Virus record (IMG/VR): IMGVR_UViG_3300032820_000032
Span: 1 to 39,732 of that record
Strand: one strand, 5' to 3'
Length of the DNA: 39,732 nucleotides
DNA from: a virus
Under the pieces are notes generated by a model, which was given only the letters and a program-made list of their open reading frames with translations, was not told where the DNA came from and did not search any database. The translations under genes were made by a program, and so were the position numbers. Positions 829-32,559 of the stretch are shown here, piece by piece (position 1 is the stretch's first letter; the number at the start of each line of letters is the position of its first letter).

Positions 829-831
829 AAA

Positions 832-3456: not shown

Positions 3457-3499
3457 AATTAAAAGCATTGGGTGCGCGCTACGAACGCGCACCCAATGC
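3457..3499 (-). terminator. Strong terminator directly after the capsid gene
   Basis: A perfect 14-bp stem (3465-3478 with 3486-3499) with a 7-base loop is followed on the minus strand by TTTTAATT. It begins 11 bp past the capsid gene stop. Such placement is common after highly expressed capsid genes. Confidence 0.9.
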
Positions 3500-3509
3500 A
3501 CGAAAGGTT

Positions 3510-4538: not shown

Positions 4539-4567
4539 TACTGGCAATCTCCTATGTTAGTCAAGCA

Positions 4568-5683: not shown

Positions 5684-5692
5684 TCTCCTGTG

Positions 5693-7794: not shown

Positions 7795-7825
7795 GTTTTG
7801 CGATTAGTTAAAACGGCTAGGGCCA

Positions 7826-7876
7826 AAGAAAAAGCCACGGCATTAGCGATGATGCGGCACCGCATTGCCGTGGCTT
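7826..7876 (-). terminator. Terminator between small gene and portal
   Basis: An 11-bp perfect stem (AAGCCACGGCA at 7832-7842 with TGCCGTGGCTT at 7866-7876) has a smaller ATGCGG/CGCAT stem nested inside. On the minus strand it is followed by TTTTTCTTT. It would end transcripts arriving from the terminase side just before the portal gene, so the portal unit probably has its own promoter or depends on readthrough. Confidence 0.8.
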
Positions 7877-7954
7877 GTCTGTTGGCCCACCGTGACACTA
7901 CCTCGGCCAAGGTAACATCAGGCTGCCGTTTATGAATTTATTAAGAGATAGAAC

Positions 7955-7980
7955 CCTGCTAACTAATGAGATTTAGCAGG
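7955..7980 (-). terminator. Hairpin immediately after the 66-aa gene
   Basis: An 8-bp stem (CCTGCTAA at 7955-7962 with TTAGCAGG at 7973-7980) lies directly after the stop codon. It is followed only by GTTCTATCTCTT, so it is a weak terminator or mRNA-stabilising hairpin. Confidence 0.45.
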
Positions 7981-8181
7981 TCAATAGCTCATCTTCCGTG
8001 TACTACCGTGTGGGTTTTGGGACTTCGGGGAATTTGATCCGCCGCGATCACTGCCTCGGTTCTTATCGAACTTCTCTGGCAGTAAGTGCCCACCACCACC
8101 TTCCCGAAATGTGCCGCCCTGTTTATCGGCAGCCGCGCGAGCCAATGATCTCATATGAGCAGCCGAATCTGGATTTGCCAT
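7981..8181 (-). CDS. Small hypothetical protein, 66 aa
   Basis: It starts MANPDSAAHMRSLARAAADK with AAGGA 8 bases upstream. The protein is Gly/Ser-rich and basic, with GGTFREGGGG and RGSDRGGSNSPKSQ, and probably disordered after the N-terminal helix. It lies between terminase and portal with a hairpin right after the stop. I do not recognise it. Confidence 0.65.
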   Translation of the reverse strand: MANPDSAAHMRSLARAAADKQGGTFREGGGGHLLPEKFDKNRGSDRGGSNSPKSQNPHGSTRKMSY

Positions 8182-8257
8182 CTGTGTTTCCTTGAGTTGA
8201 GTTGAGCCTTCTTAACTGGAATGTTGGCAGGCTAACAGTATCGCGTCAATAGCAAGT

Positions 8258-10201: not shown

Positions 10202-10619
10202 ATATGTTCAGTTCGTATTCGCCTTCTTCGAGGGCGTTCTCTGTCCACCCCCCATCATTATCTTCCCCCACACTTTGATTCTGAGCCTTCATCCTGTCAA
10301 GGTAATCTTTTATTTGCTCGTCGGTAGTGAGCAAGGCGCCCGTGACTTCTTCGGGTCCTGGCAGATCACACTCCTCCAGATACTCTGGCATGACGCCAAA
10401 TACGATTCGTTCGAATGTCAGCAGGTTGTACTCTCCCGACAAGAAAATTGCGACTGATTGATCTTCTCCCCAGCAGACGACCTCTACTCTCTGCCCGGTT
10501 GGATGCAGTTTGTATAACCGGTTAGGCGGGAATTGTCTCGCCAATTCTGCCACCTTATCTGGCATAAGTTCCAATTGCTCTTCCCAGTATTTGGCGTCCA
10601 GTTCCTGCGTAACAGCCAT
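10152..10619 (-). CDS. Hypothetical protein preceding terminase, 155 aa
   Basis: The start (MAVTQELDAKYWEEQLELMP) has a near-perfect AAGGAGGT 5 bases upstream. The protein is acidic overall. It has a beta-type middle (YKLHPTGQRVEVVCWGEDQSVAIFLSGEYN) and a C-terminal Glu/Asp-rich part that overlaps the terminase start. By position it could be a small-terminase-like or head protein, but it lacks a recognisable HTH and I do not assign it. Confidence 0.75.
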   Translation of the reverse strand: MAVTQELDAKYWEEQLELMPDKVAELARQFPPNRLYKLHPTGQRVEVVCWGEDQSVAIFLSGEYNLLTFERIVFGVMPEYLEECDLPGPEEVTGALLTTDEQIKDYLDRMKAQNQSVGEDNDGGWTENALEEGEYELNICGEDGSDSLPFRGAGL

Positions 10620-10654
10620 TTTTACCTCCTTGTAAGGAACACGAGAAATAGCAA

Positions 10655-11476
10655 CTAGATTGAAGTTGTTTCTTTTTTGAGATCGTGTTCTTCGGTGAAA
10701 CGATCGATCACCTTCTGGAGTCCATCGATATTTTTGCGTTCTTCGTTTTGTTTGTCCTGTTCCTCATTAGTCGCATCAAAATCCTTCACTAACTTGGGCA
10801 GCAATTGATTGTAAAATTTATCTGGGTTCCGCCTCGCATTCTCCAACAGGTTCCACGCGCCTGGGCTTGGTGCATCGTTCGGTTTTACGTTTTTAACGCC
10901 GATGTTTTGGTAAACCCATAATCCATCTCTCTGCATATCCGTATTGGCTGGGTCGAATTCTTCAATTGCATCTTCGTCGTCCGCATTGAACGGCTGGCTG
11001 ATTCGAAAGCGATCTGCTCGCTCCTGCAGCAGCTTATCTCCAGCATGATATTTCCCGCTGGTGACTGGTTCCAGATCCGATTCCCAGCGTTGAAAGATGT
11101 CATACCATGCCAACTCTTCACTGAACCCCGCGCCGTTTTTCCGTGAACGGTAGTAATGGATTCTTTCACGACGATACTCTGCCACTTCGTTGGTAATTCG
11201 CATTTTCTGAAACAGCTTGTTTGCAGCTTTTCGCCATGGTTTTGAAATAACCTGATCTGGCTCTAGCTGATCCTTATCCTCCAGATCGCGTTCTAAGCAC
11301 AACCGCCAATGTTGTCCTTGGGCATAGGGCACGACGGTATGTACTTCGTTTGTATCTTCATCGAAAACACCATTGGCATTCACAGCAGAGGCAGTAGATT
11401 CAGCCCATTCCTGCACGGGCTTGCGAAAAAATCTGTAACGTCGGGTAAACTCGTTGACAGTCATCTGTTTTATCAT
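10655..11476 (-). CDS. Hypothetical protein, 273 aa, possible small-terminase position
   Basis: The ATG at 11476 (MIKQMTVNEFTRRYRFFRKP) has AGGA 8 bases upstream and excludes a poorly coding extension. The sequence is strongly helical and charged, with KAANKLFQKMRITNEVAEYRRERIHYYRSRKNGAG, and a Lys/Glu-rich C-terminus (EEQDKQNEERKNIDGLQKVIDRF) likely to be coiled coil. It sits two genes upstream of the terminase, where small terminase or packaging accessory genes often occur. No HTH is clear, so the function is open. Confidence 0.7.
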   Translation of the reverse strand: MIKQMTVNEFTRRYRFFRKPVQEWAESTASAVNANGVFDEDTNEVHTVVPYAQGQHWRLCLERDLEDKDQLEPDQVISKPWRKAANKLFQKMRITNEVAEYRRERIHYYRSRKNGAGFSEELAWYDIFQRWESDLEPVTSGKYHAGDKLLQERADRFRISQPFNADDEDAIEEFDPANTDMQRDGLWVYQNIGVKNVKPNDAPSPGAWNLLENARRNPDKFYNQLLPKLVKDFDATNEEQDKQNEERKNIDGLQKVIDRFTEEHDLKKETTSI

Positions 11477-11486
11477 TGCGTTGTTC

Positions 11487-11798
11487 CTAGCGTGCTGATC
11501 GTCGAATTCTTCTTGAATCCGACTGCAAGCGTTTGTGACGCCTCTCGGACAGCTTCCAAAATTCACCGTCTGGTGCTGGTTGCAATAAGGATTTCGCACG
11601 GTGCATTGCGACGGGACACTCTGGATGATACCACGCTCCACACCTACAGCGACTGGTCGCAATGTATTCGGCCCCCTCGCGATAGTACATTTTACCTTTA
11701 CGGAACACGATTACTGGTTTGACACCATCAGGGCTATCCGACACGTAAATCAAATACGGAACAATCTTTCGACTACTATGCCCATTATGGGAAATCAT
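11487..11798 (-). CDS. Small basic protein with Cys/His cluster, 103 aa
   Basis: An AAGGAGGAGAC ribosome binding site precedes the ATG (MISHNGHSSRKIVPYLIYVS). The middle holds a possible zinc-binding cluster (SRCRCGAWYHPECPVAMH). The C-terminus is very basic (RRHKRLQSDSRRIRRSAR), suggesting nucleic-acid binding. It lies between the RuvC-like gene and the 273-aa gene. I do not recognise the family. Confidence 0.65.
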   Translation of the reverse strand: MISHNGHSSRKIVPYLIYVSDSPDGVKPVIVFRKGKMYYREGAEYIATSRCRCGAWYHPECPVAMHRAKSLLQPAPDGEFWKLSERRHKRLQSDSRRIRRSAR

Positions 11799-11848
11799 GT
11801 CTCCTCCTTGTGTTTAGCGTAGGACCATCTGAATTACGCGTTCTCGCA

Positions 11849-12415
11849 TCATTCGTGCTGGTCGATCCAGGTGAGAGCGACCGCTAGGGCTGGCCAGCTA
11901 TGGCTACTGACTTTATGCAAGCATCCTGGCGGATGGGCCCACTGTTTTCCATCGCATTCCTGGCAGACGGGACGCCCTGCACCAAACCAGCCTTTTCCTT
12001 TGCATTTGGCACATCGCTCACCGCCAATGGCGATGTCATTGCCACCAAACCGATCGATAAGTGCTTGACGGACGTTGGTATCCTTGGCGGCCATTTTTCC
12101 GCACAAGTGCAGCTTCGCCTTGTCTCGGTATACCATCCTGTACGGCCGGTGCCACGCTTCGATGAATCGTCCCGACCAGATCAGGGTTTCCATTTCCTGA
12201 AGGCTTGTGGGCATCCCACGGGGCCGCATGGTTTCCATAACCATTAAAGAACAGGTTTCGGAAAACACTTCCAGTTGTGTCTTCAGGTCCTCATTGGGTG
12301 TAGTTCCACTCCAGGGAACGTTGAGTTCTCGTGGGTCATAGATAACCCACCCGCTTTGCAAATTACCAGGATCTAAGCCCAGTATATTACCAGTTAAAAC
12401 TGGGTCTCCAGACAT
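11849..12415 (-). CDS. RuvC-like Holliday junction resolvase with zinc-ribbon insert, 188 aa
   Basis: I chose the ATG at 12415 (MSGDPVLTGNILGLDPG). The RNase H-like core is visible: ILGLDPG with Asp15, SLMVMETMRPRG with Glu61, KDTNVRQALIDRFGG around residue 111, and a late SHSWPALAVALTWID helix where family members usually carry an Asp but this one shows His172. Between these lies a DnaJ-like insertion with CAKCKGKGW and CQECDGK, plus a later Cys, which is unusual for RuvC. The likely job is resolving branched DNA before packaging. The 5' end overlaps the upstream secreted-protein gene by 29 bp. Confidence 0.75.
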   Translation of the reverse strand: MSGDPVLTGNILGLDPGNLQSGWVIYDPRELNVPWSGTTPNEDLKTQLEVFSETCSLMVMETMRPRGMPTSLQEMETLIWSGRFIEAWHRPYRMVYRDKAKLHLCGKMAAKDTNVRQALIDRFGGNDIAIGGERCAKCKGKGWFGAGRPVCQECDGKQWAHPPGCLHKVSSHSWPALAVALTWIDQHE

Positions 12416-12644
12416 CCCATGAGCGGCCTCTTGGGGTAGAGTAGCTGTGGTATCCATTCCCCCAATCGTAGCCATAGATCGTACCTCCATAGCCAGTTCC
12501 ATAATCGTAATAGTTATAGGTCTGCCATCGGGATTGATAGGGCTTCTGGTAATAGGACCAGTCGTCTGCAAATTCATCTTGCGAGTAGCAAGTTGTGCTG
12601 ATCAGCACAACGAGGGCACACAACACGGAACGTAATGTGGACAT
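12387..12644 (-). CDS. Small secreted Tyr/Gly-rich protein, 85 aa
   Basis: The ATG at 12644 has AGGA 9 bases upstream and opens a clear signal peptide (MSTLRSVLCALVVLISTTCYSQ). The mature part is rich in Tyr, Trp, Gly and Ser (YDYGTGYGGTIYGYDWGNGYH). A longer in-frame start at 12785 exists, but that stretch is better explained by a separate 44-aa gene in another frame. An exported aromatic peptide is odd inside a phage accessory region. Function unknown. Confidence 0.65.
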   Translation of the reverse strand: MSTLRSVLCALVVLISTTCYSQDEFADDWSYYQKPYQSRWQTYNYYDYGTGYGGTIYGYDWGNGYHSYSTPRGRSWDVWRPSFNW

Positions 12645-12645
12645 G

Positions 12646-12780
12646 TTATTTTTTCCTGCTTTTGCGTCCGGTTCGATAGGACTGTCCTGTAGACTTTTGG
12701 CAGATCCGGATAGCGCTTCTCTTTGTTTTTGTTTTGCTGACTTTACGAACACAACGACCGACTCGGCTGTTTGCTGGCAT
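12646..12780 (-). CDS. Very small basic protein, 44 aa
   Basis: Reading the minus strand from the ATG at 12780 gives MPANSRVGRCVRKVSKTKTK, then RSAIRICQKSTGQSYRTGRK, and a KK tail. AAGGA lies 8 bases upstream, and the stop ends one base before the start of the secreted-protein gene. The frame is strongly Lys/Arg-rich with two Cys, like other small phage proteins of the RICQxSTGxSY type. The competing frame in the same bases looks like a shadow. Probably nucleic-acid binding, but this is inferred. Confidence 0.55.
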   Translation of the reverse strand: MPANSRVGRCVRKVSKTKTKRSAIRICQKSTGQSYRTGRKSRKK

Positions 12781-12849
12781 GGCATATATCCTTGTCTGGT
12801 TGATCAAATTCCGAATCGCACGTATTGCATTTAAGCCTACAGGAAAGCA

Positions 12850-13092
12850 TTATTTAACATCTCCGGTATCTTCATCATCCTCCTCCTCATCTTCATCATC
12901 ATCTTCATCAATATCCCAGATTTCAGACAGTAAATCGTCGAACTCATCCGTATCCTCACAATCATCCATGTCCTCGTCGGTATCTTGTTCCTTTATGTTT
13001 TCAATCCCGCTCCAGCAATCGTGGCACACTCCATCGATCCGTTCTTCATCGTTCAAAGTCTTGTTGCAGTATTGACAGGATGTATTCGCCAC
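12850..13092 (-). CDS. Zinc-ribbon protein with acidic tail, 80 aa
   Basis: A GTG at 13092 with AAAGGAA upstream gives (M)ANTSCQYCNKTLNDEERIDG, then VCHDCW. The two CxxC knuckles form a likely zinc ribbon. The second half is almost wholly Asp/Glu (residues about 35-78, ending DEDTGDVK), coded by a GA-rich repeat. The longer upstream frame has no better start. It may be a DNA mimic or an interaction tail, but no function can be assigned. Confidence 0.6.
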   Translation of the reverse strand: MANTSCQYCNKTLNDEERIDGVCHDCWSGIENIKEQDTDEDMDDCEDTDEFDDLLSEIWDIDEDDDEDEEEDDEDTGDVK

Positions 13093-13131
13093 TAACTTGT
13101 TCCTTTTGCAACCCTGAAAAGGTCTAAACGA

Positions 13132-13464
13132 ATGTACTACTATCGCATCGAGGTCTTTACTGATCTGAGTCCCACAGACGGAAAGCTGCCTGTAATGGAG
13201 TCTATTAACGAGTGTCTGAAAGAGGTGGACATGCCAAATCCATTGCGCATTCGTCAACATGTCATTACGGGAACATTGGAAAGCGAGACCAAGTTCGATG
13301 ATCGGCAGATGAAGGTGTTAGCGGATTCAATCCGCAAGCAGGTATCCCTATGGCATTGGGCTGAAACAGCCGAATTCTTCGTGGAAGTCATTCTGACGGA
13401 TGCCATGGTGGGTCTTCGCGGCTCTCCTATTCCCAAGTATCCAGATGAGATGTCAGAGATATGA
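13132..13464 (+). CDS. Isolated plus-strand hypothetical protein, 110 aa
   Basis: It is the only plus-strand gene between 1 and 16 kb that looks real. AAAAGG lies about 8 bases before the ATG (MYYYRIEVFTDLSPTDGKLP). The protein has balanced, folded-looking composition with strands RIEVFTD and FFVEVILTD, and helices QMKVLADSIRKQVSLW. It diverges from the acidic zinc-ribbon gene (39 bp apart) and overlaps the 3' end of the next minus-strand gene by 38 bp. I do not recognise it. Confidence 0.65.
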   Translation: MYYYRIEVFTDLSPTDGKLPVMESINECLKEVDMPNPLRIRQHVITGTLESETKFDDRQMKVLADSIRKQVSLWHWAETAEFFVEVILTDAMVGLRGSPIPKYPDEMSEI

Positions 13465-13735
13465 GCCTTCGTCTTTTACGATCGGCATCAGCTCCAAAGG
13501 CTGCCTTGAAGTCCTTGGGTTTTATATTTCGGAACATTTCAAGTATGTCGACGAACAGCTGAGATGCCTCGCCAAATTGTTGGGAGAGCACGACATGATT
13601 CCGTTTGGCGGCTCGATCCAGTAATCGCCAGCATTCGGCGCATACCTCTTTATCTTCAAAGGCCATGAGGATTTCGGCTTGATCTGCCATCTCTGTACCG
13701 CAGGTATCGCAGACCGTAATTGTTTTGGTGGCCAT
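13427..13735 (-). CDS. Small zinc-binding protein, 102 aa
   Basis: It starts MATKTITVCDTCGTEMADQA. Two CxxC pairs (VCDTCG and VCAECW) near residues 9-35 form a treble-clef or ribbon-like zinc site. Helices and a basic end (GADADRKRRRLISL) follow. Its 3' end overlaps the convergent plus-strand gene. A DNA-binding or adaptor role is plausible but unproven. Confidence 0.65.
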   Translation of the reverse strand: MATKTITVCDTCGTEMADQAEILMAFEDKEVCAECWRLLDRAAKRNHVVLSQQFGEASQLFVDILEMFRNIKPKDFKAAFGADADRKRRRLISLTSHLDTWE

Positions 13736-13752
13736 GGGCGCATCGGAAGGTT

Positions 13753-13968
13753 CTAAGTCAATCTGATACCATTATGCACATTACTATCCGTCGTGATGTA
13801 GCCCTTCCGCTCAAGCACCTTCAAATGATGCACGACGCCATTAAGGCTATTGATCCCCAGAGCGTCCCCCAGCTGGCGGATGGTGGTAAAACAGCGGTTG
13901 GAATCGGTGGATTCTCTCAGCTTCTCCAGAACCTCTCCCTGCCGTTCTGTGAGTTGTTCTAGGGCCAT
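13753..13968 (-). CDS. LexA-type winged-helix DNA-binding domain protein, 71 aa
   Basis: The whole protein matches the N-terminal DNA-binding domain of LexA: LTERQGEVLEKLRES, then FTTIRQLGDALGINSLNGVVHHLKVLERKGYI. The C-terminal autoprotease domain (Ser/Lys dyad) is absent, and the protein stops right after the wing. It could repress or modulate an SOS-like operator without RecA-triggered cleavage. It overlaps the upstream RMF-like gene by 10 bp. The domain call is strong; the target is not known. Confidence 0.8.
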   Translation of the reverse strand: MALEQLTERQGEVLEKLRESTDSNRCFTTIRQLGDALGINSLNGVVHHLKVLERKGYITTDSNVHNGIRLT

Positions 13969-14327
13969 AGCATTCCATTTCTTTCCAGTAATTCACCGAT
14001 CCGATCTTTAGTACGTTCATCGTACCATCCAGTGTACCACCCAACACGCTCGCTATTTCCGGTCGGATAAGGGCATTTTGGATCATTACGGTTGCCATTT
14101 GCGTATGCTGTGCGATCCCTATACGCTTTGCGTCCCTCGGAGTATTCGAAGGTATCTCGTGGTATCGGTATGACATACGCGCACATATTCTTGACTTGCC
14201 ACTGACTGAGCCAGGGTAACCTTTTGAGATACGGTGGGAACATCGGTTGCATCGTTGTTTTCTCAGCGGAAAACTCCTGCTTGCGAACCTGCTCACTAAC
14301 GATACTGAAAACAAAACTGGTTGTCAA
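13959..14327 (-). CDS. RMF/CrpP-like small protein, 122 aa or shorter
   Basis: The C-terminal half carries EGRKAYRDRTAYANGNRNDP, then CPYPTGNSERVGWYTGWYDER. This is the pattern of the ribosome modulation factor/CrpP group (AYxxG, CPYP, W..G). The start is uncertain. A TTG at 14327 overlaps the upstream stop as TTGA, which suggests coupling, but the same TTG is also the -35 element of a candidate promoter. An ATG at 14252 (MQPMFPPYLKRLPWLSQWQV) is the main alternative. The role may be ribosome or host-metabolism interference; this is inferred from the family. Confidence 0.6.
   Translation of the reverse strand: MTTSFVFSIVSEQVRKQEFSAEKTTMQPMFPPYLKRLPWLSQWQVKNMCAYVIPIPRDTFEYSEGRKAYRDRTAYANGNRNDPKCPYPTGNSERVGWYTGWYDERTKDRIGELLERNGMLWP
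14299..14327 (-). promoter_or_regulatory. Candidate sigma70 promoter overlapping a TTG start
   Basis: TTGACA (14322-14327) and TATCGT (14299-14304) are separated by 17 bases on the minus strand. The -10 matches the consensus at 4 of 6 positions. If real, it would drive the RMF-like gene from its internal ATG. Confidence 0.4.
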
Positions 14328-14851
14328 CGTTCGTCCAGGGTGATTTCAGTCGCTATTTCTGGATCTGGGGATTTCCCGACGTAGGTGATTTCTTTCCATT
14401 TAAAACGGGCATATTCGCGTTGCCGCAGCCCACTACGTGTAGGGTGGACCAGATACGCCTGAATCCCCCAGGAATTGACTTTCTGGGTGAAGACCAGGGT
14501 TCCTCTCCATTGTTGGTTGGGACTTGTATCCCTCACTTGGAACACGTCACCAACGACAAAGACCGTGTTTTCCCGAAGTTTTTTAGGGCCATGATCATCA
14601 TGAGCGGCATTCACAGCATCTCCTCGGACCATCAGGGTGTGACTCTGGATAGATCGAATCATATGTGGGCCCCACGCTAACAATATCGCCTGCCTGCTCA
14701 ATTGTAATGCGAGGAGCGTGTTATCTGAAGCCGATCCGGGTGGTGCCGCGTCAAAGATAGGCAAAAACCGCAGCACCTCCCGAATCGACGAGCCCACTGG
14801 AAGTTCGCCGGCGCGAAAGGAAGACAATGGCATCGATAAAACCATTGCCAA
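14324..14851 (-). CDS. Hypothetical protein, up to 175 aa
   Basis: The C-terminal part is convincing: FVVGDVFQVRDTSPNQQWRG, then LVFTQKVNSWGIQAYLV and RFKWKEITYVGKS. It resembles small beta-rich phage proteins that begin with a V-x-D-x-F-Q-V strand. The N-terminal 60-70 residues may be a non-coding extension; internal ATGs at 14665 and 14632 are alternatives, the former with GTGGGG upstream. The stop overlaps the next gene by 4 bp. Function unknown. Confidence 0.55.
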   Translation of the reverse strand: MAMVLSMPLSSFRAGELPVGSSIREVLRFLPIFDAAPPGSASDNTLLALQLSRQAILLAWGPHMIRSIQSHTLMVRGDAVNAAHDDHGPKKLRENTVFVVGDVFQVRDTSPNQQWRGTLVFTQKVNSWGIQAYLVHPTRSGLRQREYARFKWKEITYVGKSPDPEIATEITLDER

Positions 14852-14988
14852 CTACTTCGTTAGGAATCCAAGCGGGTGGGGGCCCCCGTGTAGGGTCGGG
14901 TGCAGCCTGTCGGCTTACCACACGCTAAACGAAGACCGGCGATCCAGCACGCCTCTATCATATCAAAAATCCGATCCTGCTGATGGTC

Positions 14989-15333
14989 TCAATCGCCTCC
15001 TGGCATCGTGTCCCATGTCCTGAGCAAGAGGTTCGACTGCTCGCAGACCAGTAAACAGCGGAGATAATAGAGCTTCTCCGTGGATTTTCGCCGTGTTAGT
15101 AATATCACACCTCCTTCCAGGCTCCTAGAGAGCACTCTGTACAGGATGGCTTGCCCAGGTGCCTCTTTCCACTTCTTTGCCCATTCTACCTCCCATACCA
15201 CACCATCGGCCAACACATCGGCCCGGCTTCCATCGAAAAAGCGGTGCTCTGACTCGCCACCCAGGCATTGGGCTATCCACTTGCTCCACAGAGGCTCATG
15301 TGCCGTTGCTGGTGGTCGATCCATTCTTCCCAT
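14989..15333 (-). CDS. Stand-alone PD-(D/E)XK-type nuclease, 114 aa
   Basis: The core string SRADVLADGVVWEVEWAKKWKE, followed by APGQAILYRVL, has the Asp, the E-x-E/K set and the Q-x-x-x-Y helix typical of small phage PD-(D/E)XK proteins (D...EVxxAxKWxEaxGQAxxY). It starts MGRMDRPPATAHEPLWSKWI. Two near-identical palindromic repeats lie just upstream of its start and may be operators. Substrate unknown; branched DNA or DNA repair is the usual guess for the family. Confidence 0.65.
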   Translation of the reverse strand: MGRMDRPPATAHEPLWSKWIAQCLGGESEHRFFDGSRADVLADGVVWEVEWAKKWKEAPGQAILYRVLSRSLEGGVILLTRRKSTEKLYYLRCLLVCEQSNLLLRTWDTMPGGD

Positions 15334-15343
15334 GTAGCTCAGT

Positions 15344-15382
15344 ATGAATTCAAATTCAGAAATCTATGAATTTAAATTCAGA
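15344..15382. repeat. Two 17-bp palindromic operator-like repeats
   Basis: ATGAATTCAAATTCAGA (15344-15360) and ATGAATTTAAATTCAGA (15366-15382) differ at one base and are 22 bp apart, about two helical turns. The second contains a perfect 14-bp palindrome. They sit directly upstream of the minus-strand nuclease gene, suggesting a dimeric repressor site. Confidence 0.6.
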
Positions 15383-15413
15383 TATTTGCAGAAATCGACC
15401 TGAGTTGCGACGA

Positions 15414-15498
15414 TGCGACGATTGCGACGGACATTCCGGTTAATCTCTCCAAACGCGTATAGGCGCCTTTACCCGGAAAGTCCGTCGCAATCGTCGCA
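15414..15498. repeat. 19-bp perfect inverted repeat built from GCGACG units
   Basis: TGCGACGATTGCGACGGAC (15414-15432) recurs exactly as its reverse complement at 15480-15498. The unit is itself a doubled GCGACGATT/GCGACGG. Another TTGCGACGATT copy lies at 15548-15558. The 47-bp spacer holds no gene. Confidence 0.75.
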
Positions 15499-15575
15499 AA
15501 TGTGGTAGGAAAACAACCTAAGTGTTTACGGAAGCGTGGATTACGACTTGCGACGATTCATGAGCGGAAGAATTC

Positions 15576-15709
15576 TGACACAGGTTGACACAGGTACGAC
15601 CTTATTAGCACGCGAAGGCCAAATTCTTACAAGAAACGAATCGTTATTAGTAAGCGTGTAAGTGAAATATAAGGTGGCTAATAAGAAACAACCTGTGTCA
15701 CCTGTGTCA
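15576..15709. repeat. Long inverted repeat with doubled TGACACAGGT arms
   Basis: The left arm holds TGACACAGGT twice (15576-15595) then CTTATTAGC (15601-15609). The right arm holds GCTAATAAG (15677-15685) then ACCTGTGTCA and a 9-base partial copy (15691-15709). The arms pair over about 33 bases with a few mismatches; the loop carries a smaller CTTAC/GTAAG pair. Confidence 0.75.
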
Positions 15710-15724
15710 ACGGATGTTTCTGCA

Positions 15725-15880
15725 GCGCGCACAGCGCGCACATATTTCGAGTGCAGAACGATGTTTCAGGGTGGTTTCATGGCGGTTTCAGGGCGCGGAC
15801 AGCGCGGACAGCGCGCACATATTTCGAGTTCAGAATGGTGTTTTAGTGCGGTTTCAGGGCGCGCACACCAGATGTGCGCG
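15725..15880. repeat. GCGCGCACA / GGTTTCAGGG direct repeat block
   Basis: GCGCGCACATATTTCGAGT occurs exactly at 15734-15752 and 15811-15829. Each copy is preceded by one or two tandem GCGCGCACA or GCGCGGACA units. GGTTTCAGGGCGCG occurs around 15784-15797 and again near 15850. No convincing gene covers 15334-16020; the small open frames there simply translate these repeats. Confidence 0.65.
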
Positions 15881-23374: not shown

Positions 23375-23396
23375 GTTGGGCCTTGCCTGTGTTAAT
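23369..23396 (+). promoter_or_regulatory. Rightward recombinase promoter
   Basis: TTGACA (23369-23374) is followed after 16 bases by GTTAAT (4 of 6 matches), with a TG one base upstream as in extended -10 promoters. The expected transcript start is about 3 bases before the recombinase ATG, so the mRNA may be leaderless. Confidence 0.55.
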
Positions 23397-23405
23397 TTCA
23401 TCTGC

Positions 23406-24152
23406 ATGAACTCTAACCAAATTGCACGCGAGCTGAACCGCCTCGGAATCCGGTGCCGGGGGAAACGATGGCACCGGGAGACTGTCCGCCGCATCGTGCA
23501 GCGGGAGTTGTCCAGGCGTCCCCCGGATGCGCTGAGCGGACCAGCGCGCTGTGTACTCTATGCACGGGTGAGTCCTCGCCCGACGGAGAACGAGTCCGTG
23601 CTGGATCAGTTGCGGGCGTGCCGGGCGTGGGTTGATAGCCATGCAGACATGGTGATTGACTCAGAGTATCAGGATCAATCGTCTTCCGGGGCTGATCGCA
23701 AGCGTGTCGGATTACGGCAGGCCGTCGAAACTGTGATGCGCCACAAGCGCAGCGGGGTGCTGGTGGTCTATTCGCTGAGTCGTCTCACGCGAGACCTCGG
23801 GCTTGGCATCGACATATTGGACCGGCTGCGCCGAGCTGGCTGCCGGATCTATGAGGTCGCGATTAGCCGTTGGATCGTCACAGACAATCCCATGGAATGG
23901 CTCGGCGTAATCATGACACTGGTCATGGATCACGTCAGCCGCACCAGCGGGTCGCATCTGACAAGCCAGCGGATGATCGCCAAGCAGGATAACGGCCATC
24001 GCATGGGAGGGTCGCTGCGGTACGGCCTGCAGATCGATCCCGCGAAGGGGTCTAATTTCGTCGCCGAGTGTCCCGCAGAGACGGAGGTTATCAAGCGGAT
24101 AATCTCCATGTACGACAGAGGGCTCAGTCAGCGTTGCGGAGATCAAGAATGA
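23406..24152 (+). CDS. Serine recombinase with unusual domain order, 248 aa
   Basis: The N-terminal segment (SNQIARELNRLGIRCRGKRW, then HRETVRRIVQRE, residues 3-35) looks like the recombinase domain that normally follows the catalytic domain. After a linker comes the resolvase catalytic domain: VLYARVS with the nucleophilic Ser, DQSSSGADRKR, and VVYSLSRLTRDLG with the paired Arg. The protein then enters GGSLRYGLQID...IKRIISMYDRGLS and stops, exactly where an IARELN helix would normally continue. The order looks circularly permuted and the usual zinc-ribbon and coiled-coil end is missing. Catalytic residues are intact. It likely acts in integration, excision or inversion. Confidence 0.8.
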   Translation: MNSNQIARELNRLGIRCRGKRWHRETVRRIVQRELSRRPPDALSGPARCVLYARVSPRPTENESVLDQLRACRAWVDSHADMVIDSEYQDQSSSGADRKRVGLRQAVETVMRHKRSGVLVVYSLSRLTRDLGLGIDILDRLRRAGCRIYEVAISRWIVTDNPMEWLGVIMTLVMDHVSRTSGSHLTSQRMIAKQDNGHRMGGSLRYGLQIDPAKGSNFVAECPAETEVIKRIISMYDRGLSQRCGDQE

Positions 24153-25218: not shown

Positions 25219-25256
25219 AAAAAAACGCACCCTGCGCATCCGTGTCGCAGGGTGCG
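25219..25256 (-). terminator. Terminator after the secreted Gly-rich gene
   Basis: CGCACCCTGCG (25226-25236) and CGCAGGGTGCG (25246-25256) form an 11-bp perfect stem with a 9-base loop, followed on the minus strand by seven T residues. It ends the cytochrome-containing unit. Confidence 0.92.
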
Positions 25257-25287: not shown

Positions 25288-25689
25288 TCAGTATCCGCAT
25301 CCACCGAAGCCTGCGCCACCGAATCCCCCGCCGAACTGCCCGAATCCCCCGCCGAACTGCCCGATAAACTGGGGGCCACCAAATTGTCCTACGAATCGCT
25401 GCTGCCGGAAGAACTGTGGCTGGACGAACACGGCCCGCCTGTTAAACCGGCTGAATCGGTTGAACCGGTTGAATCGGTTGAATCGGTTGAATCCTCGGAA
25501 GCCGGTCGGACGCGCAAAAAATGCCCGTTGCGGCGCGACGAATGCCGACCCGAATCCGACGCTGACAAGTGGCGACTGCACTGCGATGCCACCACCTCCC
25601 ACAAATGCCAGACCGGTGGCGTCTGCTGGTCGCGGCGTCCAGCACGTTAGTAGAATCACGCTGGCACAGATTATTAGTAACTGTTTCAT
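25288..25689 (-). CDS. Secreted Gly/Phe/Gln-rich repeat protein, 133 aa
   Basis: A clear signal peptide (MKQLLIICASVILLTCWTPR, cleaved near PADA) leads a mature part. It has five FNR/FSR units (FNRFNRFNRFNRFSRF, residues about 68-83), then QPQFFRQQRFVGQFGG and a QFGGGFG tail ending GFGGCGY. Such sequences are seen in exported planctomycete proteins. The start overlaps the upstream cytochrome gene stop by 4 bp. It may be a structural or surface-attached partner of the cytochromes, but this is inferred from coupling only. Confidence 0.65.
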   Translation of the reverse strand: MKQLLIICASVILLTCWTPRPADATGLAFVGGGGIAVQSPLVSVGFGSAFVAPQRAFFARPTGFRGFNRFNRFNRFNRFSRFNRRAVFVQPQFFRQQRFVGQFGGPQFIGQFGGGFGQFGGGFGGAGFGGCGY

Positions 25690-26519
25690 TCGATTAGTCC
25701 TTCATATTTGAGTTGCAGATTGTAACCAAACAGTATCGCAAGCTCGTCCGCGTCGAGTGCGGGACCTCTCAGCGGCATTTGATCGTGCTCGGGTGAGCTA
25801 CCGATTGGTCCCAGCGCCCTATTGATCATTTCCCAGACGACCGTCGCGGCAAATTTATGGTCGCCGAAATTTGTCAGATCCAGATCGCCTTTGACCTCGG
25901 TTCCTCCATGACATTTCAAACAGCGGTCCTGTATTAGTTGGACGGCCTGCGGTGTCATATCAAGCTCTCCGTTGCCTCCGCGAGCTACTTCATCGTCAAG
26001 GCTGGTAACTGTCGTTCCGTTTTCCGTTTGGCGAAGGACGTATCCGTGGCCACCGGGCTTTTCACGGTACGTATCTGCCTGGGGCTGCACCAACGACAAT
26101 GCCTGTTGCGCGACGGCACGCCTTGCATCCAGGGTTGCAAGGGTCTTGTGATCGGCCATCGCTTGAGCAGCCAAATTGGAGTAGCTGGTCACCCCCAGTT
26201 TCGCCAGCGCTGCAGATGCCTCGCCTAATCTGGCGGACTCATGGAGGATGTCTGCTGGATTCAGTTGGTAGTCCCGCGCGTAACCCTGGTAACTGGCTCG
26301 GGAGTAGTAGGTGCTGCCCTGCTCCGCAGCGTATCCGGCATTATTAAATATGACTATTGGCGCGCCTCGCTCTATCACCTGGGTGCGAACAAGCGGAACC
26401 GCTCTCACTCGGCACGATCTGCCGAACGCACCGCAGCGGGAGCAGGCGCTGCTGGATGTGGCATTAGCGGCCACAAGGATCATCAGCAGGACTGCAGCGA
26501 CGACAGATTTCCGGGTCAT
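25686..26519 (-). CDS. Exported mono-heme c-type cytochrome, PSCyt1-like, 277 aa
   Basis: The signal peptide (MTRKSVVAAVLLMILVAANA) is followed by a Cys pair (CSRC) and a long helical middle with LGEASAALAKLGV. The C-terminal domain has CLKCHGG (C200, C203, H204) then VKGDLDLTNFGDHKF, and MPLRGPALDADELAIL with a candidate distal Met248. This matches the planctomycete cytochrome c pattern (CLxCHGG...KGxLDL...MPxxGPxL). The heme site faces the periplasm or outside. It lies 2 bp after the other cytochrome and overlaps the secreted Gly-rich gene by 4 bp. Electron partner unknown. Confidence 0.8.
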   Translation of the reverse strand: MTRKSVVAAVLLMILVAANATSSSACSRCGAFGRSCRVRAVPLVRTQVIERGAPIVIFNNAGYAAEQGSTYYSRASYQGYARDYQLNPADILHESARLGEASAALAKLGVTSYSNLAAQAMADHKTLATLDARRAVAQQALSLVQPQADTYREKPGGHGYVLRQTENGTTVTSLDDEVARGGNGELDMTPQAVQLIQDRCLKCHGGTEVKGDLDLTNFGDHKFAATVVWEMINRALGPIGSSPEHDQMPLRGPALDADELAILFGYNLQLKYEGLIE

Positions 26520-26521
26520 CC

Positions 26522-28156
26522 TTATTCCTCGACCGGGGGCTGATCGGTTGGCTCCAGCACTTTGAGGCGCGAAGCTACATCAGCGTAAACCCTTTCCCAG
26601 TCTCGACGCAAGACAGATTTGCCAGCCTGCAGGGTGGCTACGGCGATGTCTTCATCACCCGCATCACGGGGAGAGAGCTGTAATCGCAGGAATTCAGCGG
26701 GATCGTGGCCGCTCGGCAGCAGATAACCGATTTCCATGCAGGCGCGATGTGGCGTAACCAGATCCCACTCGATCGAGCTATATATCGCCCCGATTGAAGA
26801 TCCGGCCTCAGCCACTGTCACGAGACCATCGCCCTCTGTCAGCAGGTTCGCGCAGCGACGAATAGCACGGCTGTAATCATCACGGGCGATCTGCATAAAC
26901 CGATCGAATCCGAGTGTATCGGCGTAGAGCCCGGCGATCCTCTCGATCTCTGTAAAGTTCGCGTCGAGATTTAAGATCGCGGCATCATCAACGACATCGA
27001 GTGTTCCATGCGTGCTAAGGACATCGGCTATGTCATGAGACACGTCGAGCATGATGTCGCTCGGGCTATGGCACCGTATGCAGCTGATGCCGGGGATGAG
27101 CCGCTTCGTGCCTGGGGTTCCACGGCCGTCCGATGGACCCGGAATGGTATGATCCAGCGCGATGTTGTCTGGCACGCTGAGTTGAATTTTCCCGGACGCA
27201 TTAGCCAAAATGAAATCGGGCAGGCCGTCACGGCGAGTAACAATAATCTCCTTAGCGTCCGGCACAAACCTGATCAAATTTCTGTCAACTTGGCTCGCGA
27301 TCCTGGTATTCCCATCGGCGATGTCCTGAGTGATGTGCGTAGCTCCATAGACGCCGCGATATTGATCGACTCTGCGTTTTTTGCCGGTTACTCCGCTCCG
27401 TAGGACGATTGCCCGCTTATCCGCGCGCAGCTGCTGGTTGAGCCGCACATCAACACCCATAGCCAATAGGTATTTATCGAGGTCGGTGCGGGTTTTCTCC
27501 GTGGCGGGGACGGACTTTATCAGTTCGAAAATTCTTCGTGCGCCGTAATAACGGCCGCCGTCCACGGTCGTTAGCAGGACGACGCAGAGCCAGTCAGCGC
27601 GAAACAAAGGTCCCTGGCAATTGGTCTCGCGCGACAATAGCGCAGCTGCCTCACCATCAATATGCGGAGCCAGTATCGGTAGCGTATCCTCATTGCCTAT
27701 AGCGCCCTCAAAATCGACTATATGCACGTAGGGATCTTGATGCGCCAGAGAGTCCCAGAAGCTCGCCATGAATTCCAGGTCTGATGTGAGGGTACGCAGG
27801 TCATACCGGAGTATCCAGCCACTCCAGTCGTCTTGTCCTGGTACGCTCAGCAGCACGGGCCTGCTGAGAGTAGCGTCATGATTGAGAGCCAGCTGGATGC
27901 TGAGATTGGTGGCACCCACCCAGTCTGCTGTGGCCCAGGGCGGTATCCAGACATACCGCTGGAATCGGCGGTGTGGCTCAGGGACAACCATGATGTCAGC
28001 GGCGGCGGCGCTGACTGCATCGGTCACGACGGGCAGCGTGACTATTTTTTCCGGCAGCGGTGCGCGGACTGGCACCTTGGTGTCAGCTTGATTCGCTATT
28101 ATTACAGACAAGAGTAGTGCAGCGTACATTATCCGATTCCCGAATGATGAAGTCAT
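26522..28156 (-). CDS. Exported protein with CXXCH heme motif, 544 aa
   Basis: The N-terminus MTSSFGNRIMYAALLLSVII is a signal peptide; an internal ATG at 28129 is an alternative start with GGGA upstream. A large region of mixed fold follows (RRFQRYVWIPPWATADWVGA, YVHIVDFEGAIG). Then GISCIRCHSPSDIMLDVSH gives C359, C362 and H363, typical of covalent heme attachment. The C-terminus is helical. The 5' end overlaps the upstream wHTH gene by 74 bp if the first ATG is used. No multiheme pattern is present. I do not know this family beyond the heme site; catalytic or electron-carrier roles are both possible. Confidence 0.7.
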   Translation of the reverse strand: MTSSFGNRIMYAALLLSVIIANQADTKVPVRAPLPEKIVTLPVVTDAVSAAAADIMVVPEPHRRFQRYVWIPPWATADWVGATNLSIQLALNHDATLSRPVLLSVPGQDDWSGWILRYDLRTLTSDLEFMASFWDSLAHQDPYVHIVDFEGAIGNEDTLPILAPHIDGEAAALLSRETNCQGPLFRADWLCVVLLTTVDGGRYYGARRIFELIKSVPATEKTRTDLDKYLLAMGVDVRLNQQLRADKRAIVLRSGVTGKKRRVDQYRGVYGATHITQDIADGNTRIASQVDRNLIRFVPDAKEIIVTRRDGLPDFILANASGKIQLSVPDNIALDHTIPGPSDGRGTPGTKRLIPGISCIRCHSPSDIMLDVSHDIADVLSTHGTLDVVDDAAILNLDANFTEIERIAGLYADTLGFDRFMQIARDDYSRAIRRCANLLTEGDGLVTVAEAGSSIGAIYSSIEWDLVTPHRACMEIGYLLPSGHDPAEFLRLQLSPRDAGDEDIAVATLQAGKSVLRRDWERVYADVASRLKVLEPTDQPPVEE

Positions 28157-28738: not shown

Positions 28739-29155
28739 TCACCTCACCAGCAATGTGTAATAGGTACGGCCGCCCAAATGAGCGCAGCCAACTCCGGCAT
28801 AGGTCCACTTTTCGAAAAGGCAGCACGTTATAAACTTTCGACCTTCCAGGTCGCACCCTTGGCTGGTGCCACACCCTTCGGATTTCGCGTGCAGACCTTG
28901 CCACCCGCGCAAATGCCCAGCGACTTTCTTTTTCGCGCGGACCATGCTGGTCGCTTGGGCCTGCTCCATGAGAGCCCTGTCCATCAAGAACGGTTTCAAA
29001 CCTCGTCGCTGCCGAATTTGGTTGACTGTATCGAAGACAGTTAAAGATGCCTTCAGCTTGCTAGTGTCCTTTTCTTCTTCAGCCTGCGCCGATACCACCA
29101 GGGAATAGACTAGCGACACACAGACGAGCAGCCGAGCAGCGATCAGTGGCTTCAT
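28739..29155 (-). CDS. Secreted CAP-like (SCP/PR1) protein, 138 aa
   Basis: The signal peptide (MKPLIAARLLVCVSLVYSLV, cleaved near VSAQA) precedes TVFDTVNQIRQRRGLKPFLM, the usual opening helix of CAP domains. A possible His motif (AGHLRGWQGLH) and a C-terminal hydrophobic part (CCLFEKWTYAGVGCAHLGGR, then TYYTLLVR) follow. Several Cys are likely disulfide-bonded. CAP proteins occur in bacteria as secreted proteins of unclear activity. It is directly after a metalloprotease and a holin candidate, so a role in envelope breach or host surface change is plausible. Confidence 0.6.
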   Translation of the reverse strand: MKPLIAARLLVCVSLVYSLVVSAQAEEEKDTSKLKASLTVFDTVNQIRQRRGLKPFLMDRALMEQAQATSMVRAKKKVAGHLRGWQGLHAKSEGCGTSQGCDLEGRKFITCCLFEKWTYAGVGCAHLGGRTYYTLLVR

Positions 29156-29158: not shown

Positions 29159-29938
29159 TCACTCCGGGGTCATAGGGCCTTTCATTGAGAATATCGTCCC
29201 ATCGACCCAGGCCCTCACGTGTCCATGGACGATTCTTCCATTGGGCGGCGGCGCAGGTGTTGGCGTCGGCGGTAACGCGTCAGCACCATATCGCAGTTGC
29301 GCGTCCTCCATGTCTGCCAGCTGCGGGACAGGGGTTTGAGGATTGTAGGTTGGATTCAGCAGGGCCTTAGCGCGGCTCTCAGGTATGTGATCCAGACCGA
29401 TGGCGTGTCCGATCTCGTGCGCCATAACTGTGGGTAAGCTGATCTCATGGCGAGGCGCCTGATCAGCCAGCATAAGCGACCATGGTTCGCCGCTGTGGTA
29501 TCGCTGGAGCAGGGTAGTCCGCTCGCTGACGCGACCGCACGGCAACTGGCTGTCTGCCAGTACGCCACCGGGTTTTCCTCTGATTACCGTAATTTGGATG
29601 TTTACTGATCGCGTACCGGACTTGTATCGATGGCGGAACCCTGAGACGGCGGCCCACATATCGAACGCGCTCTGAGCGGCTTCCAGTGCATCGGTTCGCG
29701 ATATCTTCGGGAACTCGCTTAGGACATTCCATGAGACCGTCACCTCCTTTGGCCAGCGACATAACTTACGCCGGGCTGGCAATCGATCCGGCAAACCGCA
29801 AATTCTTGGAGCGTTTAAGCTCCTCGTAGTGATGGGCCCCACCGCACCATCCGGTGTTAGCGCGTGCCACCTCTGGTAAGCGGTGACAGACCGGAACCCC
29901 AACGCCTTAATACGCGTCAATTCCTTCGTGTTTTTCAC
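29159..29938 (-). CDS. Matrixin-type zinc metalloprotease with PG-binding-like N-terminus, 259 aa
   Basis: Residues 5-42 (IKALGFRSVTAYQRWHALTP...GAVGPITTRS) match a peptidoglycan-binding_1-like domain. PRICGLPD (44-51) resembles the MMP cysteine switch (PRCGxPD). The catalytic motif is HEIGHAIGLDH (174-184), complete for zinc, with LLNPTYNP after it where the Met-turn usually has Met; here it is Leu. A Pro-rich linker (PPTPTPAPPPNGR) precedes a short C-terminal part. There is no signal peptide, so export would need the holin or lysis. Its place directly downstream of the holin candidate suggests an endolysin-like or envelope-cleaving role. Confidence 0.8.
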   Translation of the reverse strand: MKNTKELTRIKALGFRSVTAYQRWHALTPDGAVGPITTRSLNAPRICGLPDRLPARRKLCRWPKEVTVSWNVLSEFPKISRTDALEAAQSAFDMWAAVSGFRHRYKSGTRSVNIQITVIRGKPGGVLADSQLPCGRVSERTTLLQRYHSGEPWSLMLADQAPRHEISLPTVMAHEIGHAIGLDHIPESRAKALLNPTYNPQTPVPQLADMEDAQLRYGADALPPTPTPAPPPNGRIVHGHVRAWVDGTIFSMKGPMTPE

Positions 29939-29942: not shown

Positions 29943-30242
29943 TCACCAATCCTTGGGAGGCACGGGCTTATTGGTTCCTGGCACTCGCGGGTCTAGTGGT
30001 CGCTTAGTGTCTGACCAGATCCCAATCAACAATGTGAGCACTACGCTTATTAGCCCGATGATCTTATTCGTCAGCAACGCCTGCTGCTCAGGCGTAAAGT
30101 CAAACCCGATGTCCTCGCTGAACGCGATTATCATCGACACGATAAACGCGGCCAGCAGGGCGACAGCTCGCTTGGAGCCAGCACTCCCAATAATTTTTGA
30201 CAGTAGAGTACCGAAGATTTTCCCGAAAATGTCTGTCATCAT
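29943..30242 (-). CDS. Holin-like two-TM protein, 99 aa
   Basis: Two hydrophobic helices (AVALLAAFIVSMIIAF, residues about 26-42, and IIGLISVVLTLLIGIW, about 61-76) are separated by a short acidic stretch (EDIGFDFTPEQQ) and followed by a basic/Pro tail (TKRPLDPRVPG). Size, topology and position before the metalloprotease fit a class II-like holin. GGAG lies just upstream of the MMTD start. The function is inferred. Confidence 0.65.
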   Translation of the reverse strand: MMTDIFGKIFGTLLSKIIGSAGSKRAVALLAAFIVSMIIAFSEDIGFDFTPEQQALLTNKIIGLISVVLTLLIGIWSDTKRPLDPRVPGTNKPVPPKDW

Positions 30243-30251: not shown

Positions 30252-31655
30252 CTAAAATCCGCCAAGGTTTTGTTGCGTTTCGCCATCCGTCGGTGCGACT
30301 GAGGCATAATTTTTTTTCCACGGATCGGCCAAGTCGCGGAACGTCGTTGTCTGGTCGTGCCATGAGCATTTGAGGTGGCCCGTAGGACCATTCCGATTTT
30401 TTTCGACCAGGATGTCTGCGACTCCTTTGTCTTCGTCGCGCCGGGAAATAGGGTAAGACTGATGTATCAATATGACTATATCGGCATCCTGCTCGATGTC
30501 CCCGGACTCTCGCAAATTACTAAGCCGTGGCATCGCATTGGCCTTTTCTCCCTCGCGATTCAATTGGCACGCGCACACCACTGGCACATGCAGGCGGCGC
30601 GCCAACAGCTTCAGTCCTCGGCTGATCTGCCCTACTTGCTCGTATCGCGGCGCCTTCGGGTTGGCTGGGCGCACGTACTGTAGATAATCCACACAGATTA
30701 GACCGATTTTGACGCGGCGCATCAAGCGGCGCGCTGTGCTGCTGATCTGGAGGAGCGTCTGGCCCGGCTCGCTCTCAAACCACATAGGCCAACTGGAGAT
30801 TATATTGCCCGCCTCAGCTAGATCGCTTCGCTGGTCGCTAGTGACGAGCGACCGCCTCATGCGCCAGCTATCGACCCCGCTGATGCTGGATAGCATGCGC
30901 TCGAGCATAGCGGAATCGCTCATTTCCAAACTGAAGATCAAGACACCGACATCCGTCTGAGCGACGTGGGACGCGATATTGCCGACCATGGCTGACTTGC
31001 CGACTCCAGGCCGCCCAGCCACGATAATCAGCTCATCAGTTCTCAGTCCACCGCAGATGCTGTCGAGATCTTTCAATCCCGTGGCAAGCCCCTCGTCCAC
31101 GCCGCCACCGCCGTCAAATCTGGTGGCTAACCGTGCCATCGTGGCGGTTACCACATCGGTAATCGCTCGCGTATCTCCACCAACATGCCTTTCCGCCAAG
31201 GTAAATATGCGCCGCTCGGCTCTAGATAGTAGCTCATCGGTATCGATGTCTGAGCTATACACCTCCCTCAGCGTCTCTGAGGCCGCATCTAAGAGCTTTC
31301 TCTTCGTGGCGTCCCTGGACACTATCTCGGCGTAGAAGCGGGCGTGTGCGGCGTGTGGGACCGTCTCAAAGAGACTCTCTACGAATCCAGGCCCACCGAT
31401 TGCCTCAAATAGCTTTTTTCTCTTCAGTCGATCGATGATCAGCTCGGCGTCGATGCGTGACCCTGCCTCCATCATGGCTAGGATCTGCTCGTACAGGGTC
31501 CGATGCGCAGGGTCGTGGAAATCTCCTGCCTGCAGGATATTGGCCACATCATCGATTACCTCTGGCTTCAGCAAGATGGAGCCCAGCACGCACTCTTCCG
31601 CGCGCAGGTTCACCGGGGGCATGCGGTCAGTCTCGTGGTCGGGTCGTGTGGGCAT
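30252..31655 (-). CDS. dnaB: DnaB-like replicative helicase, 467 aa
   Basis: The start at 31655 (MPTRPDHETDRMPPVNLRAE) has GGAG 7 bases upstream and overlaps the initiator gene by 29 bp. The N-terminal domain (EECVLGSILLKPEVIDDVAN, then YEQILAMMEAGSRIDAELII) and the RecA-like motor (IIVAGRPGVGKSAM Walker A, LICVDYLQYV Walker B, SNLRESGDIEQDADIV and VADILVEKNRNGP) are complete. It unwinds DNA as a hexamer at the phage fork. Length is normal for DnaB. Confidence 0.9.
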   Translation of the reverse strand: MPTRPDHETDRMPPVNLRAEECVLGSILLKPEVIDDVANILQAGDFHDPAHRTLYEQILAMMEAGSRIDAELIIDRLKRKKLFEAIGGPGFVESLFETVPHAAHARFYAEIVSRDATKRKLLDAASETLREVYSSDIDTDELLSRAERRIFTLAERHVGGDTRAITDVVTATMARLATRFDGGGGVDEGLATGLKDLDSICGGLRTDELIIVAGRPGVGKSAMVGNIASHVAQTDVGVLIFSLEMSDSAMLERMLSSISGVDSWRMRRSLVTSDQRSDLAEAGNIISSWPMWFESEPGQTLLQISSTARRLMRRVKIGLICVDYLQYVRPANPKAPRYEQVGQISRGLKLLARRLHVPVVCACQLNREGEKANAMPRLSNLRESGDIEQDADIVILIHQSYPISRRDEDKGVADILVEKNRNGPTGHLKCSWHDQTTTFRDLADPWKKNYASVAPTDGETQQNLGGF

Positions 31656-32559
31656 CCATGCGCTCCAGAAGGTCTTTCTTGAGGTCTCTGTAATATGATC
31701 TTGGGACGCAAATCCTTTTAAGGATTGCATTTAGGGCAATTCCGTTTTCCTTTGCGGCCCTTGTTACGCACGCGCGGAAATATCCAAGCGGCTTGTCGCG
31801 AGGTGTGTCGGTGGTCGCCTCCAGCGCGGCCGTGATCCAGCCACGAGCCTCCACGAGCCGAGTCGACAGCAAGGACAGTCGGGCGACAAGCTGCCGACTA
31901 TTAGCCTCCCAGTTGGTCTCCAGCGGTATGAGCGCGGCGAGCATTGCCATGGCGGCGTCCCTCGCGTCCAGTTTGTCCTGGTCGGAAAAAATCAGTGCCT
32001 CCCAGCGGGTCACCGTAAATTGACCGGGATCGCCATTAGACTGTACAGATTCCAGATTACTCTTACTCTCTTCTACGTTACGCGTAACGTGTGACGTAAC
32101 GTTACGCGTAACGTTACGTAACGCGTTACTATTATCTCCATCTATTTCGGCTTTGCGGCGATCTCGATACCGCCTTTGCCGGTCTCGATTTTGCGCCACC
32201 GCATCGCCAGGATCTTGGTTGTGTTCCAGAAAAAACTTCGGGAAAACAAGGTCTTTATCGTTTTGAGCGAGCCAGCCAACCTCCAGCATTGCAGCCCCCA
32301 AACCGGGTAGACTGCCGATCTCATCGACGATCTCCACGGAGCCGCCAGGGAAGACTAGATCATCACCCATTCGCTTACCTTGTCGGCGCATAATGCCCCA
32401 AACTGAGACAAGCGCACCAATGATAGCGTTACGCATAACGTAACGCGTAACGCGCGTAACGTTACGTAACGCGTTACTATTGTCGCACATTATCTGAGCT
32501 GCCTGGATGACCTTCGGATCGCGAAAAATGCCGGACCTCATCTTAATCCAGTCATCCAT
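31627..32559 (-). CDS. Replication initiator-like protein with internal iterons, 310 aa
   Basis: MDDWIKMRSGIFRDPKVIQA resembles the first helices of phage replication proteins (O/DnaD type: W-I-K-M...DPKV). DDLVFPGGSVEIVDEIGSLP and DKDLVFPKFFLEHNQDPGDA look like winged-helix parts, then a basic RDRQRRYRDRRKAE. DNSNALRNVTR occurs twice (residues about 26-36 and 142-152) because the same 28-bp DNA block occurs twice; the codons for these repeats are also GTTACGTAAC-type palindromes. The C-terminus overlaps the DnaB start. It would melt or bind the origin and load DnaB. Confidence 0.7.
   Translation of the reverse strand: MDDWIKMRSGIFRDPKVIQAAQIMCDNSNALRNVTRVTRYVMRNAIIGALVSVWGIMRRQGKRMGDDLVFPGGSVEIVDEIGSLPGLGAAMLEVGWLAQNDKDLVFPKFFLEHNQDPGDAVAQNRDRQRRYRDRRKAEIDGDNSNALRNVTRNVTSHVTRNVEESKSNLESVQSNGDPGQFTVTRWEALIFSDQDKLDARDAAMAMLAALIPLETNWEANSRQLVARLSLLSTRLVEARGWITAALEATTDTPRDKPLGYFRACVTRAAKENGIALNAILKRICVPRSYYRDLKKDLLERMDAHTTRPRD
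32075..32133. repeat. Iteron-like cluster A inside initiator gene
   Basis: About 55 bases are made of overlapping GTAACGTTAC, GTTACGCGTAAC and GTAACGCGTTAC palindromes. A 28-bp block (32106-32133) recurs exactly in cluster B. Confidence 0.8.
32426..32481. repeat. Iteron-like cluster B inside initiator gene
   Basis: The same palindrome family as cluster A (GCGTTACGCATAACG, GTAACGCGTAACG, then GTAACGTTACGTAACG), with the shared 28-bp block at 32454-32481. The two clusters are about 350 bp apart. Confidence 0.8.

Follow-up and report, generated by a model that had tools for sequence, protein, structure and literature searches.

Profile and alignment evidence showed that two adjacent phage genes, P277 and P544, encode the predicted two halves of a di-heme protein that is fused in Planctomycetota, with P277 corresponding to the small cytochrome c domain and P544 to the large CxxCH domain. 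The pair lies in an IMG/VR virus record (IMGVR_UViG_3300032820_000032) that we analyzed over its whole length of 39,732 nt (hereafter the window). A survey of related contigs recovered the pair in many viral contigs with invariant heme motifs. We are highly confident that these genes constitute a split di-heme cytochrome cassette belonging to a viral lineage.

The preliminary description of this DNA had placed two ORFs 2 bp apart, one containing CLKCH and the other CIRCH, in a unit coupled to a secreted repeat protein and closed by a strong terminator. The coordinates, motifs, coupling, and terminator all held (Table 1). The 2 bp separate the P544 stop from the P277 start, CLKCH occupies 25922-25908, and CIRCH is C359-I-R-C362-H363 of P544 (residues 359-363). 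In shuffled proteins, CxxCH arose by chance in 0.17% of trials for P277 and 0.13% for P544. At <0.2% per protein, the chance of the motif in both neighboring genes is about 2 in a million. The cassette is the end of a unit that also contains replication genes.

Table 1 Features of the cassette and its surroundings in the window.
Feature	Coordinates	Strand	Basis
Intrinsic terminator at the end of the unit (perfect 11-bp stem, loop of 9 nt, 7 T)	25219..25256	(-)	Read from the sequence; a terminator scan lists the inner part
P133, secreted F/N/R/G repeat protein, 4-nt overlap with P277 (ATGA)	25288..25689	(-)	Low-complexity secreted ORF at this place in most of the other cassettes
P277, small exported c-type cytochrome (C200-L-K-C203-H204 ... 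M248-P249), N-terminus rich in Cys	25686..26519	(-)	12-sequence alignment; Cytochrome_CBB3 matches of relatives
P544, exported protein with the large heme domain, from the virus branch of an unnamed family whose other members are fused to PSCyt1-type cytochromes	26522..28156	(-)	Profile matches to chromosomal and viral homologs, conservation, tree
Exported CAP-like protein upstream of the cassette	28739..29155	(-)	Weak CAP match, 12.1 bits
M10 matrixin-type metalloprotease, weak N-terminal peptidoglycan-binding match	29159..29938	(-)	PF00413 57.3 bits, PF01471 14.7 bits
Holin-like protein, two hydrophobic segments	29943..30242	(-)	Hydropathy; family searches without match

The window is the entire virus record, possibly a genome fragment, and a terminase large subunit and a major head protein were matched in it. 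Circular closure was considered and rejected, as a terminal repeat was absent and contig L003 (IMGVR_UViG_3300032278_002184), which overlaps the window, passed position 1 without matching the other end. L003 was 99.98% identical to window positions 1-15745 and ~98% identical beyond, and was without ~130 bp near 15745-15878. Two contigs close to the window phage by terminase (L005 and L006) had no P544 in their available sequence, and the cassette is therefore accessory in this phage group. The host of the window virus is probably Planctomycetes bacteria. PADLOC anti-phage defense profiles gave no match. Elsewhere in the window, a serine recombinase at 23376-24152 (+) matched Resolvase at 70 bits and Recombinase at 23.5 bits; at only 258 aa, it points to a temperate phage or to an integrase that has been shortened. 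Palindromic GTAACGTTACG repeats occurred at 32084-32136 and 32453-32484 within ORF 31627-32559, where they encode NVTR-type repeats, and a 33-nt inverted repeat (14552-14584 / 32230-32262) was 94% complementary with 17.6 kb between its arms.

P277 had been described as having a PSCyt1-like end. Its Met-Pro was invariant among relatives. P277 alone scored 17.3 bits against PSCyt1 (PF07635), below the Pfam gathering cut-off of 22, as did its relative in L161 (17.6 bits, same cut-off), and its match to Cytochrome_CBB3 was sub-threshold too. Cytochrome_CBB3 was matched by 10/12 relatives (best 2.8e-8). Across the 12 aligned sequences CxxCH, Gly206, and Met248-Pro249 were invariant. P277 has sequence features of a class I c-type cytochrome, namely CxxCH and a Met C-terminal to it, and the invariant Met-Pro would be the expected distal heme ligand. 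An export signal was seen by hydropathy, and many relatives had a Pro/Val-rich, host-like N-terminus.

P544 had no match in Pfam, NCBIfam, or PHROGs, in agreement with its initial assignment to no known family, but it can now be placed in an unnamed family with chromosomal members. PDB sequence searches gave no convincing match, and none for P544. C359, C362, H363, Y203, R261, and E303 were invariant in 46/46 aligned sequences, with P142, S254, and D278 nearly so. Both profile similarity and common invariant residues put P544 in the chromosomal di-heme family. The fused N-terminal cytochrome c domain of that family is not in P544, and in phages the cytochrome is a separate gene. To judge by these comparisons, P544 defines an unnamed protein domain tied to PSCyt1 proteins. 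Its export signal was judged by eye; together with the CxxCH conservation (46/46 for P544 relatives, 12/12 for P277), these signals uphold the view of an exported c-type cytochrome-like pair. The reading that fits best is P277 as a putative His/Met carrier of electrons and the larger P544, in which a Tyr/Arg/Glu set is conserved, as its partner. One P544-like protein (L175:7887-9569) had a twin-arginine-like signal at its start (MNRREALKTLAAG), while most others were Sec-type. A second P544-like frame of 399 aa was located on a 341-kb viral contig (G407:C1:29101-30267, (-)), far from the cassette on that contig.

As single queries, neither P544 nor P277 found relatives in viral, phage, plasmid, and genome collections, save one weak match of P544 to LR756511, an uncultured phage of 595 kb (26% identity, E 3e-3). 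At the LR756511 locus, the three genes were arranged as in the window and encode a 611-aa protein with CIVCH, an exported 243-aa protein with CAQCH, and a secreted repeat protein; a papain-like protease was two genes upstream. A two-row profile scan and a query with L148 only were unsuccessful, and a family alignment searched against IMG/VR was successful. With near-identical contigs counted once, this gave 29 distinct viral loci consisting of the window, LR756511, 26 IMG/VR contigs, and one prophage. P544-like and P277-like genes occurred together in 27/29 loci, across many unrelated phages; prophage L148 and contig L234 had no adjacent P277-like gene. The pattern CxxCH..29-48..MP was present in the P277-like gene of 26/29 loci, and a secreted low-complexity ORF followed 3' of the pair in most. 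Cassette-bearing contigs ranged from ~16 to 595 kb. Related contigs did not lack phage genes: on several, terminase, portal, or capsid genes were present, close to the cassette or elsewhere on the contig. An exported family of 240-295 aa ('GIELPADQTVKFDEGF...VKWLVIS') lay upstream of the cassette in L163, L164, L167, L169, L170, L172, L174, L175, and L008, and several of those loci also had an upstream amphipathic protein of 134-226 aa. Neither belonged to a clear family.

Protease genes recurred beside the cassette. An S8 protease was directly upstream in five loci (L148, L220, L230, L233, and L234), and a distantly related S8-type protein occupied this place in L235. A papain-type C1 protease adjoined the cassette on its upstream side in L236 and was one gene removed from it in the jumbo-phage group LR756511/L164/L167/L169/L172, and astacin-like M12A proteases were directly upstream in L225 and L226. 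A trypsin-like gene was just downstream in L221. The M10 matrixin of the window, three genes from the cassette, is the counterpart of these proteases. No recognized protease was near ~1/3 of cassettes (e.g., L161, L222, L223, L227, L170, and L176). That unrelated protease families swap at one position suggests that proteolysis may matter. Holin-like proteins with a hydrophobic segment preceded several cassettes. CAP-domain proteins flanked the cassette in three loci: the window (weak match), L234 (72.6 bits), and L221 (by phmmer).

A two-protein P544-type profile found homologs in 11/392 Planctomycetota genomes, and a later viral profile reached chromosomal E-values down to 2e-66. With one exception these homologs were long proteins. 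All ten with a complete frame that were scanned had two CxxCH motifs ~360-400 residues apart, the first of which was within a PSCyt1 or CBB3 domain in most, with PSCyt1 above the Pfam cut-off. Further domains were often present, including FGE-sulfatase, DUF4384, SHD1, and a Ser/Thr kinase (L154). A Neorhizobium protein had the same core as the chromosomal family. The exception, G372:C18, was 484 aa with one CxxCH and was in a prophage with the order subtilase gene, P544-like gene, ParB-like gene, terminase, portal, and head genes. Because the heme domains are fused in chromosomes and are two genes in phages, P277 and P544 are likely to be functionally linked. One chromosomal di-heme homolog (L153, 1570-5715, (-)) was ~30 bp from a likely TPR-CHAT protease identified by eye, and another in Neorhizobium (L007, 1-525) was near a caspase-family gene. 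The association with proteases may extend outside phages as well.

In a maximum-likelihood tree, one branch parted all 28 phage sequences from all 18 chromosomal sequences with 100/100 support; the tree was unrooted and some end branches were long. An earlier sequence set likewise kept phage and chromosomal sequences apart. This clean split argues for an old viral lineage and does not support recent, repeated pick-up from hosts. Phage copies did not nest among host copies, as those of a recently acquired auxiliary metabolic gene would. Closely related cassettes had dN of ~0.1-0.2 versus dS of ~0.7-1.1, showing that the cassette is under purifying selection in a separate viral lineage. Its occurrence across contigs of such different size, the age of the lineage, and the invariant residues together indicate that the cassette is useful to many phages.

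The cassette differed from each of the known systems it resembles. Like PSCyt1, P277 has a small CxxCH domain followed by an MP motif, and most chromosomal P544 relatives are PSCyt1 fusions, but P277 is encoded on its own in the phage, has an exported N-terminal region of its own, and is paired with P544. The fused di-heme proteins of Planctomycetota and Neorhizobium (e.g., L149, L152, and L007) share the large CxxCH domain and invariant residues of P544; in them, by contrast, that domain is joined in a single chain to the small cytochrome and to additional domains, and the branch that separates them from all phage forms is fully supported. Electron carriers such as cyanophage plastocyanin, ferredoxin, and PTOX are phage auxiliary genes. 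These are likewise phage-borne carriers, but they are close copies of host genes, whereas the cassette represents exported c-type cytochromes of an old viral lineage, in a fixed arrangement of three genes with proteases as neighbors. MauG/CCP and RoxA are exported and carry two c-type hemes, one of them for electron transfer, and the phage pair resembles them in being exported and in combining a putative electron-transfer heme with a candidate catalytic heme. Unlike those enzymes, the two CxxCH motifs are on two proteins, one per phage protein, and there was no Pfam or PDB sequence match. The function of PSCyt proteins has been given as unknown (He et al. 2017, PMC5615132), a study of phage nitrogen-cycle genes observed no cytochrome electron carriers in its phages (PMC8115048), and the main text of a paper on huge phages makes no mention of cytochromes or heme (PMC7162821). 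Our search of the open-access literature, with subscription papers and preprints outside its scope, found no phage system based on exported c-type cytochromes.

Taken as a whole, we lean toward a two-heme redox relay that is exported, encoded by two separate genes, and used in the host envelope together with an extracytoplasmic protease. P277 and P544 would leave the cytoplasm through Sec and obtain heme c from the cytochrome c maturation system of the host. A host system is invoked since CcsA-type genes were present in the Planctomycetota genome harboring the prophage, with none in the phages tested. The His/Met heme of P277 could then exchange electrons, in either direction, with the heme of P544. 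P544 would act as the catalytic or docking partner, with Tyr203, Arg261, and Glu303 as candidate active-site residues. Envelope or surface proteins may be the target, through oxidation, reduction, or cross-linking, after which the altered proteins might become accessible to the neighboring protease or the surface itself might change. P133 may serve as a matrix or anchor, and action late in infection is a guess. The preliminary description had thought of a respiratory, signaling, or adhesion role; the recurring protease neighbor points instead to the cell envelope. Proteases, holin-like proteins, and the secreted repeat protein beside the pair favor redox action on the host envelope, although the envelope and proteolysis role itself is tentative and has somewhat less than an even chance. 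A bolder version, which we consider unlikely, is that Planctomycetes phages breach or remodel a protein-rich, disulfide-bonded envelope by redox-plus-protease egress, in which the P277-to-P544 relay would modify proteins and the protease would cut them.

The pair could instead sustain host electron transport during infection, with P277 as a soluble carrier and P544 as its donor or acceptor. P277 does resemble a normal His/Met electron-transfer cytochrome c, and phage auxiliary electron carriers have precedent. Auxiliary genes usually nest among host copies, however, whereas phage and chromosomal sequences here were fully apart, and the pair is accompanied by a secreted repeat protein and proteases rather than oxidase or reductase subunits, so that a respiratory helper seems improbable. 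We are more doubtful still that the proteins coat the infected or lysogenic cell, blocking superinfection or acting as adhesins with a structural heme. That the cassette includes a secreted repeat protein, occurs in a prophage, and encodes P277 relatives with host-like N-termini would fit such surface alteration, but the invariance of Y203/R261/E303 and the Met-Pro ligand point to a chemical role, and several of the phages that carry the cassette are very large and show no evidence of lysogeny. Much the same low standing falls to a sensor, in which the P544 heme would detect redox state or a gas and control the neighboring protease or lysis timing, an idea we find very unlikely. Fusion of chromosomal relatives to regulatory-type domains (Ser/Thr kinase in L154, DUF4384, FGE-sulfatase, and SHD1) and the position of the L153 homolog beside the protein read as a CHAT-type protease speak for it, yet the phage proteins have no signaling domain and a P277 partner favors electron transfer over ligand sensing. 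A virion-component role was rejected as the main idea because heme c is attached outside the cytoplasm, yet the L161 cassette adjoins a head gene.

Two further alternatives question the identity of the genes rather than their use. The CxxCH motifs might be structural or metal-binding with no heme attached. AlphaFold models built from 12-13 sequences were of low confidence (mean pLDDT 57 for P544 and 50 for P277) and could not show a heme pocket, and Foldseek found no meaningful match to them. Invariance of both motifs, the distal Met-Pro in P277, export of the proteins, matches of relatives to cytochrome Pfam models, and the above-cut-off PSCyt1 fusions among chromosomal homologs make this reading highly improbable. 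We attach next to no weight to host DNA on a misassigned contig. Chromosomal homologs do exist, and one IMG/VR match (L165) was host-like and fused, but the viral form is split and forms a separate lineage, with capsid, portal, and terminase genes beside cassettes and both terminase and major head protein in the window. The pair is accordingly phage-encoded and not host DNA, as first described.

Phages of the Planctomycetes, and the cell envelope of these bacteria, are poorly understood. The recurring cassette suggests that phages may use redox chemistry on the host cell envelope in a manner not yet described. If redox-plus-protease egress were true, it would be a lysis-type mechanism beyond murein hydrolases alone. 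The function of PSCyt1 has been a long-standing blank, and the split phage pair, a compact counterpart of the larger host proteins that lends itself to expression, makes that question testable.
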